64,000 nucleotides of DNA from Eubacteriales bacterium. Lineage in GTDB: Bacteria > Bacillota > Clostridia > Oscillospirales > Butyricicoccaceae. The notes beneath the pieces were generated by a model, which ran no database searches, was not told the DNA's origin, and saw only the letters and a program-made list of their open reading frames with translations. Below are positions 5,788 to 63,999 of this stretch, piece after piece. The position numbers and the translations under genes were made by a program. The stretch lies in assembly GCA_030524285.1 (NCBI GenBank), contig JAUNGQ010000003.1, positions 89,563 through 153,562 of the forward strand, in the 5' to 3' direction. The number at the start of each line of letters is the position of its first letter. Within the stretch, counting starts at the first letter, position 1.

Positions 5788-5812
5788 AAAAATTTTTTCT
5801 CAAGTAGAATCC

Positions 5813-5906
5813 TCAAAACTCCCTACGCCGGTATTAACCGTACAGGTTCAATGAGTAAGGAAGCATGCCATTCCACTCTCAGCCGCTTGCCGCGGCTCCC
5901 CAGTTG
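5813..5906 (-). promoter_or_regulatory. TPP riboswitch (THI element)
   Basis: The minus strand carries GGGGAGCC, then GGCTGAGAGTGG, then GAACCTG and the TACCGGCGTAGGGAG block, which are the conserved thi-box segments in order. The AACT/AGTT ends can close P1. Binding of thiamine pyrophosphate would favour the terminator just downstream and switch off thiSFGHE. Confidence 0.95.
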
Positions 5907-6011
5907 AAGAACAATGTTCAGTTGTCTTTCTGTAGCATATTATACGGCAGGTTCGTCGAAATGTCAAATATTTTGTGAAAAGAGGCTGGTGCCCAATGAA
6001 TGAGGGGCAAC

Positions 6012-30061: not shown

Positions 30062-30090
30062 TTGCACTTGCCGAAAGACTGTAATAAAAT
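30062..30090 (+). promoter_or_regulatory. Promoter of the purine operon
   Basis: TTGCAC and TAAAAT are separated by 17 bases. Transcription should start near 30097, leaving a 255-base leader before purE. Confidence 0.7.
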
Positions 30091-30144
30091 AATAGTGCAG
30101 TATCAATCTCTTTTTCAAATTGGCAGAAAGGAGTTCTGAAGGGT

Positions 30145-30252
30145 ATGTTTGCTGGATGCTTTGTAAACAGAGCATATACCGTACAGTTTGCTGAGCTGTG
30201 TTCCCGTCAGGGCAATTTTTGCAGCTATTTTGAGTCTGATACTGTCCGATGA
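30145..30252 (+). CDS. Possible leader peptide (35 residues) upstream of purE
   Basis: A small ORF starts with ATG after AAAGGAG and GAAGGG sequences. It encodes a 35-residue, cysteine- and aromatic-containing peptide beginning MFAGCFVNRAY. Its stop lies 10 bases before the terminator stem, so a ribosome at the stop could disturb that hairpin. It spans the structured leader. I cannot tell whether it is translated; a chance ORF inside a riboswitch-like RNA is the alternative. Confidence 0.35.
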   Translation: MFAGCFVNRAYTVQFAELCSRQGNFCSYFESDTVR

Positions 30253-30262
30253 AGAATCAATT

Positions 30263-30300
30263 GCAGGACATTGTATGTTTCTACGATGTCCTGCGTTTTG
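30263..30300 (+). terminator. Leader terminator before purE
   Basis: A perfect 9-bp stem GCAGGACAT/ATGTCCTGC is followed by GTTTTGCTTCTT. It lies inside the operon leader, 58 bases before purE, so it works as an attenuator rather than an operon end. Confidence 0.75.
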
Positions 30301-30351
30301 CTTCTTGAAATATTTTTTGAGTAAGCATTCAAAAACGAAGGAGATATCGTT

Positions 30352-30846
30352 ATGAAAAAAGTTTGTATCGTAATGGGATCTGACAGTGATCTCAAGGTTA
30401 TGGAAGGCTGTATGAACAAGCTGGATTCTTTCGGCGTACCGTATGATGTCCGCATTGTGTCTGCACACCGCACGCCGGCGGCGGCTGAACAGCTGTCCAA
30501 GAATGCTGCGGCAGACGGTTATGGCGTTATCATTGCAGCAGCAGGCAAGGCTGCGCATCTGGGTGGCGTTCTGGCAGCACAGACAACGTTGCCGGTTATC
30601 GGTGTTCCGATCAAGTCCTCCTTCATGGATGGTTTGGATAGCCTGCTATCCATTGTCCAGATGCCGTCCGGTATCCCGGTAGCAACAGTTGGTGTCAATG
30701 GCGCTGATAATGCTGCTATTCTGGCAGTACAGATGCTGGCGCTCAGTGAACCGGAGTTGGTAGAGAAGCTGGCACAGTTTAAGGCAGACATGCAGGCAGC
30801 TGTCGAGGCCAAGGACGCCAAGATCAGCGCACAGTTCGCCAAGTAA
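30352..30846 (+). CDS. purE: N5-carboxyaminoimidazole ribonucleotide mutase
   Basis: Converts N5-CAIR to CAIR in purine synthesis. The 164-residue protein has the PurE signature MGSDSDL (residues 9-15) and SAHRTP (43-48), plus AAGKAAHLGG. No purK or purC lies in this operon, so these steps are encoded elsewhere or bypassed. AAGGAG lies before the ATG. Confidence 0.95.
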   Translation: MKKVCIVMGSDSDLKVMEGCMNKLDSFGVPYDVRIVSAHRTPAAAEQLSKNAAADGYGVIIAAAGKAAHLGGVLAAQTTLPVIGVPIKSSFMDGLDSLLSIVQMPSGIPVATVGVNGADNAAILAVQMLALSEPELVEKLAQFKADMQAAVEAKDAKISAQFAK

Positions 30847-34179: not shown

Positions 34180-34884
34180 ATGGAAATTTTTGATCTTGGC
34201 GCACAGTTGCGCAGCAACAGCTATCCGGGCCGCGGCATCGTGCTTGGCCGAAGTGCAGATGATAAGTCTGCTGTAATTGCATATTTTATCATGGGCCGCA
34301 GCGAAAACAGCCGCAACCGTATTTTCTCTGAGACAGAGGACGGTATCCGTACAGAAGCATTTGACCCGTCGAAGATGGTTGATCCGTCCCTGATTATTTA
34401 TCATCCGGTCCGTGTTTATGAAGGCGCAACTATTGTTACCAATGGCGATCAGACGGATACCGTACGGGATGGTCTGGCAGCAGGCAAGAGCTACATTGAA
34501 GCGCTGCGCACCCGTCAGTTTGAGCCGGATGGCCCGAACTACACACCGCGTATTTCCGGTATTGTCGAGCCGAATGGCGCGTATGAGCTGTCGATTCTCA
34601 AGAGCTTTGACGGCGATCCGGCATGTAATAAGCGTTTCTTCTTTGAATATGACGCACCGCGTGCAGGTCTGGGCCACTTCATCCATACCTACATGAACGA
34701 TGGTTCTCCGCTGCCGTCCTTTGAGGGAGAGCCGGAAACGGTACGCATTGAAGGTAATCTGAATGAATTTGCGGATATGGTTTGGGAAAACCTGAATGAG
34801 GACAACAAGGTATCCCTGTATGTTAGCTTCATTGATCTGGAAACCGGTAAGGCTTCCAGCGTAATCCGCAACAAGCACTGCTGA
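34180..34884 (+). CDS. purO: IMP cyclohydrolase, PurO-like
   Basis: A 234-residue protein of the IMP cyclohydrolase family first known from archaea (PurO, COG3363). It closes FAICAR to IMP. Recognisable parts are NSYPGRGIVLG (residues 13-23), AVIAYFIMGRSENSRNR and PNYTPRISGI. It replaces the cyclohydrolase half of bifunctional PurH, and the transformylase half is encoded by the next gene. Folate is not used in this step. Confidence 0.88.
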   Translation: MEIFDLGAQLRSNSYPGRGIVLGRSADDKSAVIAYFIMGRSENSRNRIFSETEDGIRTEAFDPSKMVDPSLIIYHPVRVYEGATIVTNGDQTDTVRDGLAAGKSYIEALRTRQFEPDGPNYTPRISGIVEPNGAYELSILKSFDGDPACNKRFFFEYDAPRAGLGHFIHTYMNDGSPLPSFEGEPETVRIEGNLNEFADMVWENLNEDNKVSLYVSFIDLETGKASSVIRNKHC

Positions 34885-34901
34885 GAGGAGAAAATGAAAT
34901 C

Positions 34902-36077
34902 ATGACTGAACTCGCACTGAAATATGGCTGCAACCCGAATCAGAAGCCATCTCGCATTTACATGAAGGAAGGCGAACTGCCGATTACTGTTCTGAACGGC
35001 AAGCCGGGTTATATCAACTTTATGGATGCATTCAACAGCTGGCAGCTCGTACGTGAGCTGAAGGCTGCTACCGGTATGGCTTCTGCTGCTTCCTTTAAGC
35101 ATGTCAGCCCGGCAGGCGCTGCTATCGGCACACCACTGTCTGATGTAGAAAAGCAGATCTATTTTGTTGATACCGAGGAAGAACTGTCTCCGATCGCCTG
35201 CGCATACATCCGTGCACGCGGTGCTGATCGTCTGTGCTCCTATGGTGACTGGGTAGCTCTGTCGGATACCTGTGATGCACAGACTGCAACCTATCTGAAA
35301 TATGAGGTTTCTGATGGCATTATTGCTCCGTCCTATACCGATGAAGCGCTGGAAATCCTCAAGAGCAAGCGCAAGGGTGGTTACACTGTTATCCAGATTG
35401 ATCCGGATTACGAACCAGCTGCCATCGAGCGCCGCGAAATCTTCGGTATCACCTTCGAGCAGGGTCACAATAACCTTAAAATTGATGAGGAAATGCTGGT
35501 AAACATCGTAACAGAGAACAAGGAGCTGCCGCAGCAGGCAAAGCTGGATATGATCGTATCCCTGATTACGTTGAAATATACCCAGTCCAATTCTGTTTGC
35601 TATGTCAAGAACGGTCAGACCATTGGCGTTGGCGCTGGCCAGCAGAGCCGTATTCATTGCACCCGTCTGGCAGGCAACAAGGCAGATAACTGGTTCCTGC
35701 GTCATCATCCGAAGGTACTCGGTCTACAGTTTGTTGACGGCATTCGCCGTCCGGACCGTGATAATGCAATCGATGTGTACACTTCCGATGAATATGAAGA
35801 TGTTCTGGCAGAAGGTGTATGGCAGACAAAATTCAAGGTAAAGCCGGAGCCGCTGACCGCAGAGGAGAAGAAGGCATGGATTGCCACCCAGTCCGGTGTT
35901 ACCGTAGGCTCGGATGCATTCTTCCCATTTGGCGATAATGTTGAGCGTGCAAAGAAGTCCGGCGTTGCTTACATCGCACAGCCGGGCGGCTCCATCCGTG
36001 ATGACCATGTTATCGATACCTGCAACAAGTATGGCATCGTGATGTCATTCACTGGTATTCGCCTGTTCCATCACTAA
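34902..36077 (+). CDS. Stand-alone AICAR transformylase
   Basis: A 391-residue protein equal to the C-terminal AICAR formyltransferase domain of PurH, which uses 10-formyltetrahydrofolate. It starts LKYGCNPNQKPS, followed by SFKHVSPAGAA with the catalytic Lys-His region and SNSVCYVKNGQTIGVGAGQQSR near residue 228. The cyclohydrolase domain is missing and is supplied by the PurO-like protein just upstream. GAGAGGAG precedes the start by 11 bases. Confidence 0.93.
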   Translation: MTELALKYGCNPNQKPSRIYMKEGELPITVLNGKPGYINFMDAFNSWQLVRELKAATGMASAASFKHVSPAGAAIGTPLSDVEKQIYFVDTEEELSPIACAYIRARGADRLCSYGDWVALSDTCDAQTATYLKYEVSDGIIAPSYTDEALEILKSKRKGGYTVIQIDPDYEPAAIERREIFGITFEQGHNNLKIDEEMLVNIVTENKELPQQAKLDMIVSLITLKYTQSNSVCYVKNGQTIGVGAGQQSRIHCTRLAGNKADNWFLRHHPKVLGLQFVDGIRRPDRDNAIDVYTSDEYEDVLAEGVWQTKFKVKPEPLTAEEKKAWIATQSGVTVGSDAFFPFGDNVERAKKSGVAYIAQPGGSIRDDHVIDTCNKYGIVMSFTGIRLFHH

Positions 36078-39813: not shown

Positions 39814-41169
39814 TTACAGGAAAATATATTTGAGTACAAATAGAACTGCAAGAATATACATCAGCGGTGTGATCTTCTTGGACTTGCCGCAGATCAGGTT
39901 GATGACGACATAAGAGATAATGCCAACAGCGATACCCTCGGAAATGCTGTACATCAGCGGCATACAAATCAGGCAGAGATAAGCCGGAATTGCTTCGGTG
40001 AGGTCATCAAAGTCAATTTCTGTTACTGCTGTAATCATCAGGAAGCCAACAAAGATCAGAGCCGGAGCAGTAGCAAAGCTTGGAATGGTAGTAAATACCG
40101 GAGCGAAAAAGATGGAAACAAGAAACAAAAGGCCAGTAATGACAGAGGATAAACCGGTTCTACCGCCTTCGGCAACGCCAGAGGAGCTTTCTACAAAGGT
40201 TGTTGTGGTAGAAGTACCCAGGACTGCACCAGCGGAGGTTGCAATGGCATCTGCCAGCAACGCCTGCTTGATGCGCGGAAGTTTGCCATTCTCATCCAGC
40301 ATATTAGCCTTATTTGCAACGCCAATCAGGGTTCCCAGTGTATCAAACATATCGACAAACAGGAAAGCGCAGATGATAACAATGAAATCGATCACGTTCA
40401 TATCAATGCTTGCAAAGTTAAAGCATTGTCCAAAAGTCTGGCGGATTGCGGTAATGTCGAAATTAGACCAAGACGGAATTAAGGAATAGAAACCATTCTC
40501 CATATCAATCTGGTAAATACCGGTCAACTGGCAGATAATGCCCAGAATCCATGTTGCGAGAATACCGATCAAAATAGAACCTTTTACATGCTTGACATGA
40601 AGCACGGCAATGATGATCAGTCCAATAACTGCCAGCAGTGCACCGATGCCGATGGTGTGAAAATCAGAGGTAAAGTTTACAACAGTTACCAGTGTAGAGC
40701 TGTCTACAACCAGATTGGCATTTTGGAGACCGATAAAGGCAATAAAAAGGCCAATACCAACCGAAACACCTTTTTTCAGCTGGAGAGGGATAGCATTAAA
40801 AATTGCTTCACGTACATTTGTCAATGAGAGTACAATAAAAATCAAACCTTCGACGAATACTGCAAGCAGGGCAAACTGCCATGAATATCCCATGGAACCG
40901 CAGACCGTGTATGCAAAATACGCATTCAGTCCAAGGCCCGGCGCAAGGGCAAACGGATAGTTAGCCAGTAACGCCATGCACATACAGCCGATAAATGCTG
41001 AGAGTGCAGTTGCCATCAGAACGGCATTGGTGTCCATGCCGGAGGCTGACAGAATGGACGGATTGACTGCCAGAATGTATGCCATCGTCATGAAGGTAGT
41101 AAGACCTGCTACAGCTTCTGTACGGACACTTGTGTGGTTTTCCTGGAGCCTAAATTGTTTTTCGAGCAT
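39814..41169 (-). CDS. AzgA/PbuG-type purine permease
   Basis: A 451-residue transporter of the NCS2-related AzgA/PbuG family, with about 13 helices, importing adenine, guanine or hypoxanthine. Signature stretches are TTFMTMAYILAVNP near residue 25, ALAPGLGLNAYF near 73, GIGLFIAFIGLQNA and the late TFVESSSGVAEGGRTGL. It lies 1.8 kb from the purine operon on the other strand. No purine riboswitch is visible upstream. AAGGAAGGG precedes the ATG. Confidence 0.93.
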   Translation of the reverse strand: MLEKQFRLQENHTSVRTEAVAGLTTFMTMAYILAVNPSILSASGMDTNAVLMATALSAFIGCMCMALLANYPFALAPGLGLNAYFAYTVCGSMGYSWQFALLAVFVEGLIFIVLSLTNVREAIFNAIPLQLKKGVSVGIGLFIAFIGLQNANLVVDSSTLVTVVNFTSDFHTIGIGALLAVIGLIIIAVLHVKHVKGSILIGILATWILGIICQLTGIYQIDMENGFYSLIPSWSNFDITAIRQTFGQCFNFASIDMNVIDFIVIICAFLFVDMFDTLGTLIGVANKANMLDENGKLPRIKQALLADAIATSAGAVLGTSTTTTFVESSSGVAEGGRTGLSSVITGLLFLVSIFFAPVFTTIPSFATAPALIFVGFLMITAVTEIDFDDLTEAIPAYLCLICMPLMYSISEGIAVGIISYVVINLICGKSKKITPLMYILAVLFVLKYIFL

Positions 41170-41360: not shown

Positions 41361-41389
41361 TTGACAGATACCCCGGCAGGGTATATAAT
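41361..41389 (+). promoter_or_regulatory. Promoter of the copper operon
   Basis: Perfect TTGACA and TATAAT are separated by 17 bases. The spacer itself contains an inverted repeat that should bind CsoR. Confidence 0.9.
41368..41384 (+). promoter_or_regulatory. CsoR operator 1, within the promoter spacer
   Basis: The inverted repeat ATACCCC-GGCA-GGGTAT matches the G/C-tract palindrome of CsoR operators and lies between the -35 and -10 boxes, so bound CsoR would block polymerase. Confidence 0.85.
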
Positions 41390-41390
41390 C

Positions 41391-41413
41391 AAAATACCCC
41401 TTAGGGGTATTTT
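41391..41413 (+). promoter_or_regulatory. CsoR operator 2, downstream of the -10 box
   Basis: A perfect palindrome with arms AAAATACCCC and GGGGTATTTT covers the transcription start. Two operators suggest tight, possibly cooperative repression. Confidence 0.8.
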
Positions 41414-41432
41414 ATCGATGTGAGGTGCTGAC

Positions 41433-46750: not shown

Positions 46751-47016
46751 AAAAAAACTGCCCATCCCAAACGATACAGTTCAGGACGAACAGAAACTGT
46801 CCGCGGTACCACCTGATTTACCGGAAAAAGTCCGGTCACTCAAGAGCGCCATTTAACGCATGGCAGAACGGCGCACCTACTGCCCTGAACAATCAGGGGT
46901 TCAGATTGCGGCTGGTGAAGTGTTCTTCGCGCTCATTCATTCTACAGCATTCGCACTATCTGCTGTTCACTGGGAGCGATAAGGAGCGTTACTTTTCTTC
47001 GTCATCGCCAATATAC
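46751..47016 (-). promoter_or_regulatory. T-box leader of aspS
   Basis: The T-box core GGTGGTACCGCGG lies at 46802-46814 on the minus strand. Upstream are the stem I start (GATGACGAAGAAAAGTAACG) and an apical ACAGCA/TGCTGT hairpin. Downstream, AACTG-ATC/GAT-CAGTT plus seven Ts (46751-46782) forms the terminator. Uncharged tRNA would promote the antiterminator. I could not fix the specifier with confidence; the candidate loop reads AGAATGAATGAGCG. Confidence 0.85.
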
Positions 47017-50077: not shown

Positions 50078-50354
50078 ATAAAAAAGCCCCCTATCCCTAC
50101 ATGGGACAAGAGCTTAAAAATCCTGCGATACCACCCAAATTGACGTAAAACGTCCTCTCGCTTTCCGCGCCACCACGCGTACCCGATGGATAACGGGTTG
50201 GGATCCCGTCGGCGTCTACTTGGTTTCCCGTTCAAGCCACCCTCTGGAGTCCATTCACACAGCTGCTCACCACTTTGATTCCACCATCCAAAGTTCTCTA
50301 AAGGTTCGCTGTACTGGCTACTACTCTCCTTCACAGGTTTTCATTTATTTAACT
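50078..50354 (-). promoter_or_regulatory. Tryptophan-specific T-box leader of trpXYZ
   Basis: The T-box core GGGTGGTATCGCAGGA is at 50121-50136 (minus strand). The specifier region reads TGTGAA-TGG-ACTCC, placing TGG (Trp) at 50251-50253. A terminator stem (50085-50115) ends in six Ts. Uncharged tRNA-Trp should allow readthrough into the transporter genes. Confidence 0.88.
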
Positions 50355-63848: not shown

Positions 63849-63922
63849 TGCCGAATTGTGTAAGGGTAGCACGACAGACTCTGACTCTGTTTGTGAGGGT
63901 TCGAATCCTTCTTCGGCAACCA
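63849..63922 (+). tRNA. tRNA-Gln(CTG), copy 1
   Basis: Acceptor stem TGCCGAA/TTCGGCA, anticodon loop CTCTGAC (anticodon CTG), T-loop GGTTCGAATCC, discriminator A and encoded CCA; 74 bases. Confidence 0.95.
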
Positions 63923-63925
63923 TAT

Positions 63926-63999
63926 TGCCGAATTGTGTAAGGGTAGCACGACAGACTCTGACTCTGTTTGTGAGGGTTCGAATCCTTCTTCGGCAACCA
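63926..63999 (+). tRNA. tRNA-Gln(CTG), copy 2
   Basis: Identical in sequence to the preceding copy, which ends three bases upstream. The 77-base repeat unit and the window edge leave open whether more copies follow. Confidence 0.95.

Follow-up and report, generated by a model that had tools for sequence, protein, structure and literature searches.

Among described systems, the leader of the E. coli pyrBI operon comes closest to the one considered here: a short leader ORF (pyrL) and an intrinsic terminator precede a nucleotide-biosynthesis operon. There, pausing is reported to keep ribosome and polymerase closely coupled and thereby to prevent termination (PMC5021804, PMC3641672 and PMC4824070). 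PMC4824070 also describes a terminator a few base pairs past a stop codon as almost fully repressed by the arriving ribosome, and terminators less than 100 bp into a coding region as escaping a ribosome that has yet to catch up, unless pausing couples the two. In B. subtilis, terminators a few nucleotides after stop codons are described as usual, and are read as a sign of polymerase outrunning the ribosomes (PMC7858274). In Salmonella, pausing at conserved nucleotides has been proposed to mediate purine-nucleotide sensing within mgtM, a short ORF with an unconserved peptide, high ATP turning the mgtCBR operon on (PMC3641672). Amino-acid attenuators of the trp type also combine a leader ORF with a terminator, and keep more than 20 bp between stop codon and terminator (PMC4824070). 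Finally, the ZTP/ZMP riboswitch (RF01750) can occupy the slot before purE. No purine leader of the kind presented below was described among the best open-access literature matches listed; an earlier description elsewhere is possible.

The window, meaning the whole stretch of 64,000 nucleotides that was analysed, carries a run of purine genes in the order purE-purF-purM-purN-IMP cyclohydrolase-AICAR formyltransferase, assigned by TIGR01162 (204 bits), TIGR01134 (531 bits) and Pfam matches. The elements found in front of purE, the first gene of the run, are collected in Table 1. The promoter proposed in the preliminary description has a -10 box that is kept in the window and 10 congeners, and a weak -35 box recognised by eye. 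The 35-codon ORF and, at the position first given, the terminator were confirmed, with 10 nt between the stop codon and the terminator stem. The same promoter-ORF-terminator order is seen in congeners. The Shine-Dalgarno sequence reads AAAGGAG or AGAGGAG in all 11 aligned rows (window and 10 congeners). A terminator scan of the leader found one terminator against 0.5 expected in shuffled sequences; 97% of its pairs are kept in eight relatives (slid controls, 25-49%), and 11 to 13 of the 13 pairs are present in each of 10 congeners. Searches of the ORF peptide against Pfam and NCBIfam gave no match.

Table 1. Elements of the purE leader, numbered from the first letter of the window
Element	Position	Strand	Remark
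Promoter, -35 box TTGCAC	30062-30067	+	weak; read by eye, missed by consensus scan
Promoter, -10 box TAAAAT	30085-30090	+	conserved in alignment of window and 10 congeners
Promoter, whole	30062-30090	+	17-nt spacer between -35 and -10
Segment able to pair with 30216-30222 (pause-motif region)	30123-30129	+	predicted fold over the ORF ribosome-binding site
Shine-Dalgarno sequence of the small ORF, AAAGGAG	30127-30133	+	
Leader ORF, 35 codons, MFAGCFVNRAYTVQFAELCSRQGNFCSYFESDTVR	30145-30252	+	stop codon TGA, 30250-30252
Pause-like motif GGCAATTTTTGCA	30211-30223	+	presumed RNA 3' end C30222; incoming A30223
Intrinsic terminator stem-loop	30263-30294	+	13 pairs; short T tract from 30296
purE	30352-30846	+	TIGR01162, 204 bits

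Two further features were noted around this layout. In many genera of the family, a GTAT can be seen by eye some 7 nt downstream of the -10 box, where transcription is presumed to begin; it could be involved in start-site selection. The operon lacks a single bifunctional PurH. Its place is taken, at 34180-36077 of the window, by two separate genes, one for an IMP cyclohydrolase-like protein (PF07826) and, after it, one for an AICAR formyltransferase (NF005492).

The best explanation of this leader is, in our view, a pyrBI-like translation-coupled transcription attenuator with a purine-sensitive pause, to which we give a probability of about 0.5. We infer such a device because the stop codon lies a short distance from the terminator, the ORF is about 100 nt long and a pause-like site close to consensus is present. 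Transcription would start near 30097 and a ribosome would load on the 35-codon ORF. Because the ORF is short, the ribosome would usually be left behind by polymerase, so that the terminator forms and transcription ends ahead of purE. Towards the end of the ORF, however, polymerase would encounter the pause-like site, at which the incoming nucleotide is a purine. Scarcity of ATP or GTP would prolong the pause and let the ribosome close up behind polymerase. Once at the stop codon, which lies just ahead of the terminator, the ribosome would cover the base of the hairpin and allow read-through into the purine operon. The sign of such a device fits end-product control. The conserved ORF, its stop beside the terminator, the terminator and a motif held at the nucleotide level are well supported by the sequence comparisons; a pause of polymerase at the motif, a response of this pause to purine nucleoside triphosphates and a blocking of the terminator by the ribosome are inferred.

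Compared with pyrBI, the leader precedes a purine rather than a pyrimidine operon, in Firmicutes rather than in E. coli. Where pyrBI has a uridine-rich stretch, the purE leaders have one or two consensus pause-like motifs with a purine at +1, and where the pyrBI terminator lies inside the ORF, most purE leader ORFs stop just before it. A short ORF does stand between promoter and terminator, its translation being deduced from conservation. The leader of mgtCBR differs by its operon, by the opposite sign of its response and by its use of alternative stem-loops, no conserved equivalent of which turned up in purE leaders; the latter have no conserved adenine stretch in the ORF, the conserved element being GG-N6-TGC-R. 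As for trp-type attenuators, the purE leaders have no conserved antiterminator, and their stop codons lie within about 12 nt of the terminator in the curated leaders as compared to more than 20. They also show no run of control codons in the 31 ORFs examined; purines are not amino acids, and glycine codons are mildly enriched.

To place the window leader among its relatives, 87 genomes of the family were surveyed. A purE gene was present in 79 and leaders were obtained from 78, the remaining match lying at a contig edge. A curated ORF-plus-terminator leader, with an ORF of 20-42 codons and a ribosome-binding site, was found in 65 of the 78 (window included). In nine leaders of the sister genera g7 and g8 (L146, L148, L149, L151, L152, L153, L156, L158 and L159), the same slot is occupied by a ZTP riboswitch, and none was detected by Rfam in eight ORF-type loci scanned alongside. 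Two leaders of genus g15 showed neither element in the scan, and L132, with its ORF leader farther upstream, was kept outside the curated set. One regulatory position ahead of purE is thus filled by a riboswitch in some genera and by an ORF-based device in others. The 65 leaders were combined with five from named records (L071, L085, L099, L105 and L107) into a curated set of 70; the peptide of L071 is identical to that of L122, and both probably come from the same genome. Nine of the 70 were located by hand-chosen anchor strings, the spurious ORFs of the ZTP leaders L152 and L159 were dropped and the start of L044 was moved to an internal ATG.

In 69 of these 70 leaders, the stop codon is placed at most 3 nt past and at most 12 nt ahead of the start of the terminator, a tightness that is weak proof by itself since most rows were picked with a stop limit of -6 to 20 nt. 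Among 47 representatives (L141, with its stop 30 nt beyond the terminator start, was excluded), an ORF that starts with ATG and has a good ribosome-binding site ended beside the terminator in 36 cases, as compared to a mean of 0.29 and a maximum of 2 in shuffled sequences; the representatives were partly selected for having such an ORF, the same rule being applied to real and shuffled leaders, and they are not independent lineages. One of the 78 family leaders, outside the 65, stood apart. In L032 (the genome of L069, Candidatus Butyricicoccus stercorigallinarum), a one-base difference from the nearest relatives, either real or an assembly error, is found near the motif; the frame of the leader ORF is shifted and continues over 57 codons through the terminator, as in pyrBI.

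The survey was extended to the order, where 357 of 394 genomes carried purE. Sixty leaders from other families, one per genus, were drawn from the best matches listed, a choice biased to nearer purE genes. They were not preselected for an ORF. A terminator was found in 38 and an ORF beside it in 18, to be compared with a mean of 1.3 (maximum 4) in shuffles treated by the same rule, or 3.6 (maximum 8) with five candidate terminators each shuffled. By pattern only, a ZTP-like core was visible in eight of the 60.

We then considered how specific this arrangement is. Similar distances also occur elsewhere: among 115 ordinary terminators within 432 kb of the window's genome, 32% have a stop codon in the range of 6 nt past to 13 nt ahead of them. 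A loosened scan of the same 432 kb returned three leaders of such build, namely that of purE and two others lacking the motif, one of which resembles ribosomal protein L32. At guaB and purA (27 loci in 15 genomes), no ORF-plus-terminator leader was seen among the 25 loci with a located start. A ribosome near the end of the purE leader ORF can reach the terminator, as in pyrBI, at a spacing similar to that of about a third of ordinary gene ends. This frequency, like the spacing described for B. subtilis, counts against the attenuator. With polymerase running ahead of the ribosomes, the purE leader would terminate by default and coupling could come from the pause alone; the model stands, and stop spacing ceases to be independent proof of it.

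The element that recurs among the leaders is a nucleotide motif close to the end of the ORF, GG-N6-TGC-R. It is present within the final 60 nt ahead of the terminator in 29 of the 47 representatives, as compared to expectations of 2.7 (maximum 9) from dinucleotide shuffles and 2.6 (maximum 8) from codon shuffles. Overall, 51 of the 70 curated leaders carry it, at a density of 18.2 per kb in leaders versus 1.2 per kb in the surrounding fetched DNA. Its distribution is uneven. Genera g6 (24/24), g10 (7/7), g3 (6/6), g14 (2/2) and g5 (5/6) have it in nearly every leader, g13 in one of two, the named records in three of five and g1, the window's genus, in only three of 10; in the last 60 nt of the eight leaders of g2, g4, g9, g11 and g12 together it was not found. 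Among the 18 ORF leaders of other families, which were held out, eight from four families contain the motif (shuffles, mean 0.7, maximum 4) and 10 lack it. This patchiness and the imperfect copy in the window count against the attenuator, which the presence of the ORF beside the terminator within and beyond the family supports. A short pattern of the g6 motif, searched across 15 genomes, also gave scattered matches outside purE.

An unanchored EM search of 31 leaders recovered GGGCATTTTTGC[A/G], with the window motif aligning with those of other genera. In an alignment anchored on TGCR, G is found at -10 in 56 of 69 rows and at -11 in 50 of 69; among the representatives, -3 is T in 42/46 and -1 is C in 44/51. 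The incoming base after GG-N6-TGC is A in 29 cases, G in 13, C in two and T in none, that is a purine in 42 of 44, whereas the base after TGC in purE coding DNA is evenly distributed (A 97, C 98, G 92, T 88). The extended E. coli pause consensus is given as G-11G-10T-3G-2Y-1G+1 (PMC6062546), and G-10 and Y-1 G+1 are named in PMC12288461 and PMC5423485. The leader motif agrees with this consensus position by position, but has A at +1 more often than the consensus G. The window copy, GGCAATTTTTGC-A, fits at four of the six positions (G-11, T-3, G-2 and C-1) and deviates at C-10 and A+1. The motif, enriched among the leaders and imperfect in the window, is a candidate for a pause site upstream of the terminator such as that of pyrBI, and may pause RNA polymerase. 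A NusG-type pause, described with TTNTTT at -11 to -6, was discarded since it is incompatible with G at -11 and -10. A small GCA/UGC hairpin seen by eye was also dropped as the conserved motif; it fails in several leaders that retain GG-N6-TGC-R. In L105 and L107, a copy of the pause-like motif (GGAGTATTTGCG) lies within the terminator of the purE leader and spans its loop.

Genus g6 offered a view of how the motif relates to the reading frame. In 21 of its 24 leaders (the codon table leaves out the divergent L121, L133 and L134), there are two copies at a distance of 20 nt, which are read in different frames and code for GHSC and SGIGA. The codons GGG, TGC, GGT and GCA are each present in 21/21, and an A follows the first TGC in 21/21 while the codon that this A opens varies between Ile, Thr and Met. 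Because the motif occurs twice in two frames, the nucleotides rather than the peptide appear to be selected. A contribution of the peptide to the conservation of the motif is possible, 33 of 44 motif copies sharing one frame.

Shuffling the 31 examined ORFs would yield 31.5 in-frame stops, and the frames stay open. The comparison of synonymous and nonsynonymous changes that had been called for gave pN/pS values of 0.69, 0.68 and 0.65 in three sets of equal-length ORFs, 0.68 being that of the window's genus (seven leaders); a fourth set (g6, 27 aa) gave 2.9 from few changes. The peptides differ among genera. Overall, the frame is held open and the peptide sequence is largely free, which is not ordinary selection on a protein.

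These data bear on the rival that survives best, in which the ribosome is the sensor: it would be stalled near the terminator by slow codons, by a nascent arrest peptide (G-x-F/S/I-A/C) or by a delayed release once the stop codon is reached. A synchronising pause is known from the trp leader. The nucleotide motif would, in that case, merely be a pause of this kind, as in the tlrB leader (PMC12288461). The conserved ORF with its stop near the terminator would suit such a sensor, as would the weak purifying selection on the peptide in three of the four sets, the prevailing frame of the motif and a mild enrichment of Ile (z 3.5) and Gly (z 3.4) codons in the 31 ORFs. On the other hand, the peptides vary between genera, the g6 set shows no constraint by its few changes, no strongly enriched control codon was found in the 31 ORFs and one ORF reads the motif in two frames. 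The last point weakens the arrest peptide in particular, identical nucleotides encoding both GHSC and SGIGA in one g6 ORF. We regard a sensing ribosome as rather unlikely, though it deserves to be kept in mind. Sensing of the formyl-Met supply through initiation on the ORF was also considered and rejected: less translation would give more termination, which is the wrong sign when set against that of ZTP riboswitches.

A second rival holds that translation of the ORF matters without a specific signal, the leader being an attenuator of growth rate or translation status and the TGC motif serving RNA stability or a fold-back onto the ribosome-binding site of the ORF. The helix between 30123-30129 and 30216-30222 keeps at least six of its seven pairs in eight of 10 congeners. 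In the 47 representatives, pairing of the ribosome-binding site with the leader's own 3' segment is stronger than in shuffled sequences (mean z -1.05) and than with mismatched segments (-15.3 versus -13.4 kcal/mol; mean rank 0.31 and 0.32), values that are inflated by the relatedness of the leaders. However, outside g1, g10 and g12 most genera show a mean z close to -1 or weaker, and the conserved G at -10/-11 and T-3 G-2 C-1 R+1 are not needed for this pairing. An attenuator that lacks a specific signal thus appears improbable. The fold-back itself is suggestive only. Within the purine-sensing attenuator, it might mask the ribosome-binding site in untranslated leaders, silencing late translation and sharpening the OFF state.

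The preliminary description had favoured a new metabolite-binding riboswitch controlling the terminator, with two folded domains and a five-base segment, TGTCC (30243-30247), used alternatively by the stem closing the second domain and by a pairing disruptive to the terminator. The window leader does fold more stably than shuffled sequences (z -4.3), less so without the terminator (z -2.3). Upstream of the terminator, 65% of the pairs are kept in eight relatives as compared to 38-50% in slid controls, and 28 cells are changed on both sides; this measure favours the upstream structure, which was derived from one of the compared sequences. The pair counts in eight relatives leave out L031 and L033, both of which are included in the helix check on 10 congeners. 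RNAalifold, applied to the window together with 10 congeners, retained nothing but the terminator and a hairpin at the ORF ribosome-binding site. Pairs upstream of the terminator are kept above controls, and the helix between 30123-30129 and 30216-30222 is a partial point in favour of the folded domain, but no aptamer-like consensus fold emerges over these 11 sequences. Similarly, TGTCC exists and can pair with GGACA (30266-30270), but the central pair is broken in all eight relatives counted: the terminator is conserved, the alternative pairing is not. Across the 47 representatives, antiterminator pairing with the 5' arm of the terminator is on average at chance (mean z -0.18), with L071 (z -3.3), L045 (z -2.5) and L135 (z -2.0) as exceptions. 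As first reported, no purine, PRPP, ykkC or T-box element is recognisable: within the window leader, Rfam yielded nothing that reached gathering level or had an E value below 1.7. Neither a conserved aptamer structure nor an Rfam match was thus obtained for a purine, PRPP, ZTP or new riboswitch, and the window leader has an ORF where its g7 and g8 counterparts have the ZTP aptamer. Even though a ZTP riboswitch fills the equivalent slot in related genera, the missing fold and Rfam match, the broken switch, the chance-level antiterminator and a frame kept open against the stops expected from shuffling make it very doubtful that this leader is a riboswitch, and we reject the proposal. The comparisons favour instead what the preliminary description had named as its alternative, an attenuation that depends on the ribosome.

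A broader form of the pyrBI-like reading can be put forward more tentatively, at somewhat less than even odds. It supposes a purine counterpart of pyrBI in several families of the order, in which an elemental pause, conserved as DNA independently of frame, would sense incoming ATP or GTP and so determine whether the ribosome arrives at the terminator early enough. The ORF would be disposable as a peptide, and the device would have evolved to be interchangeable with the ZTP riboswitch, in a phylum whose polymerase is believed to outrun ribosomes. If this is true, several families of gut Firmicutes would control purine synthesis by a direct equivalent of the textbook pyrBI switch, and an elemental pause sequence would have been visibly preserved by evolution regardless of the protein frame. 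One short leader would then address both the elemental pause as an in vivo sensor of nucleoside triphosphates and a deliberate catch-up of the ribosome in Firmicutes, a group in which runaway transcription is believed to be the rule.

Other elements were observed in the window. Two GC-rich inverted repeats (ACCCCTAAGGGGT and ACCCTGCCGGGGT) at 41361-41420 lie upstream of a gene for an NCS2-like permease (39814-41169, minus strand). They also adjoin a divergent gene that presumably encodes a CsoR-type metal repressor, and look like a candidate operator for it. Two T-box leaders are found at 46779-47014 and 50099-50343 (minus strand), and a TPP riboswitch at 5803-5912 (minus strand). Finally, two tandem tRNA genes with equal scores are located at 63849-63996.
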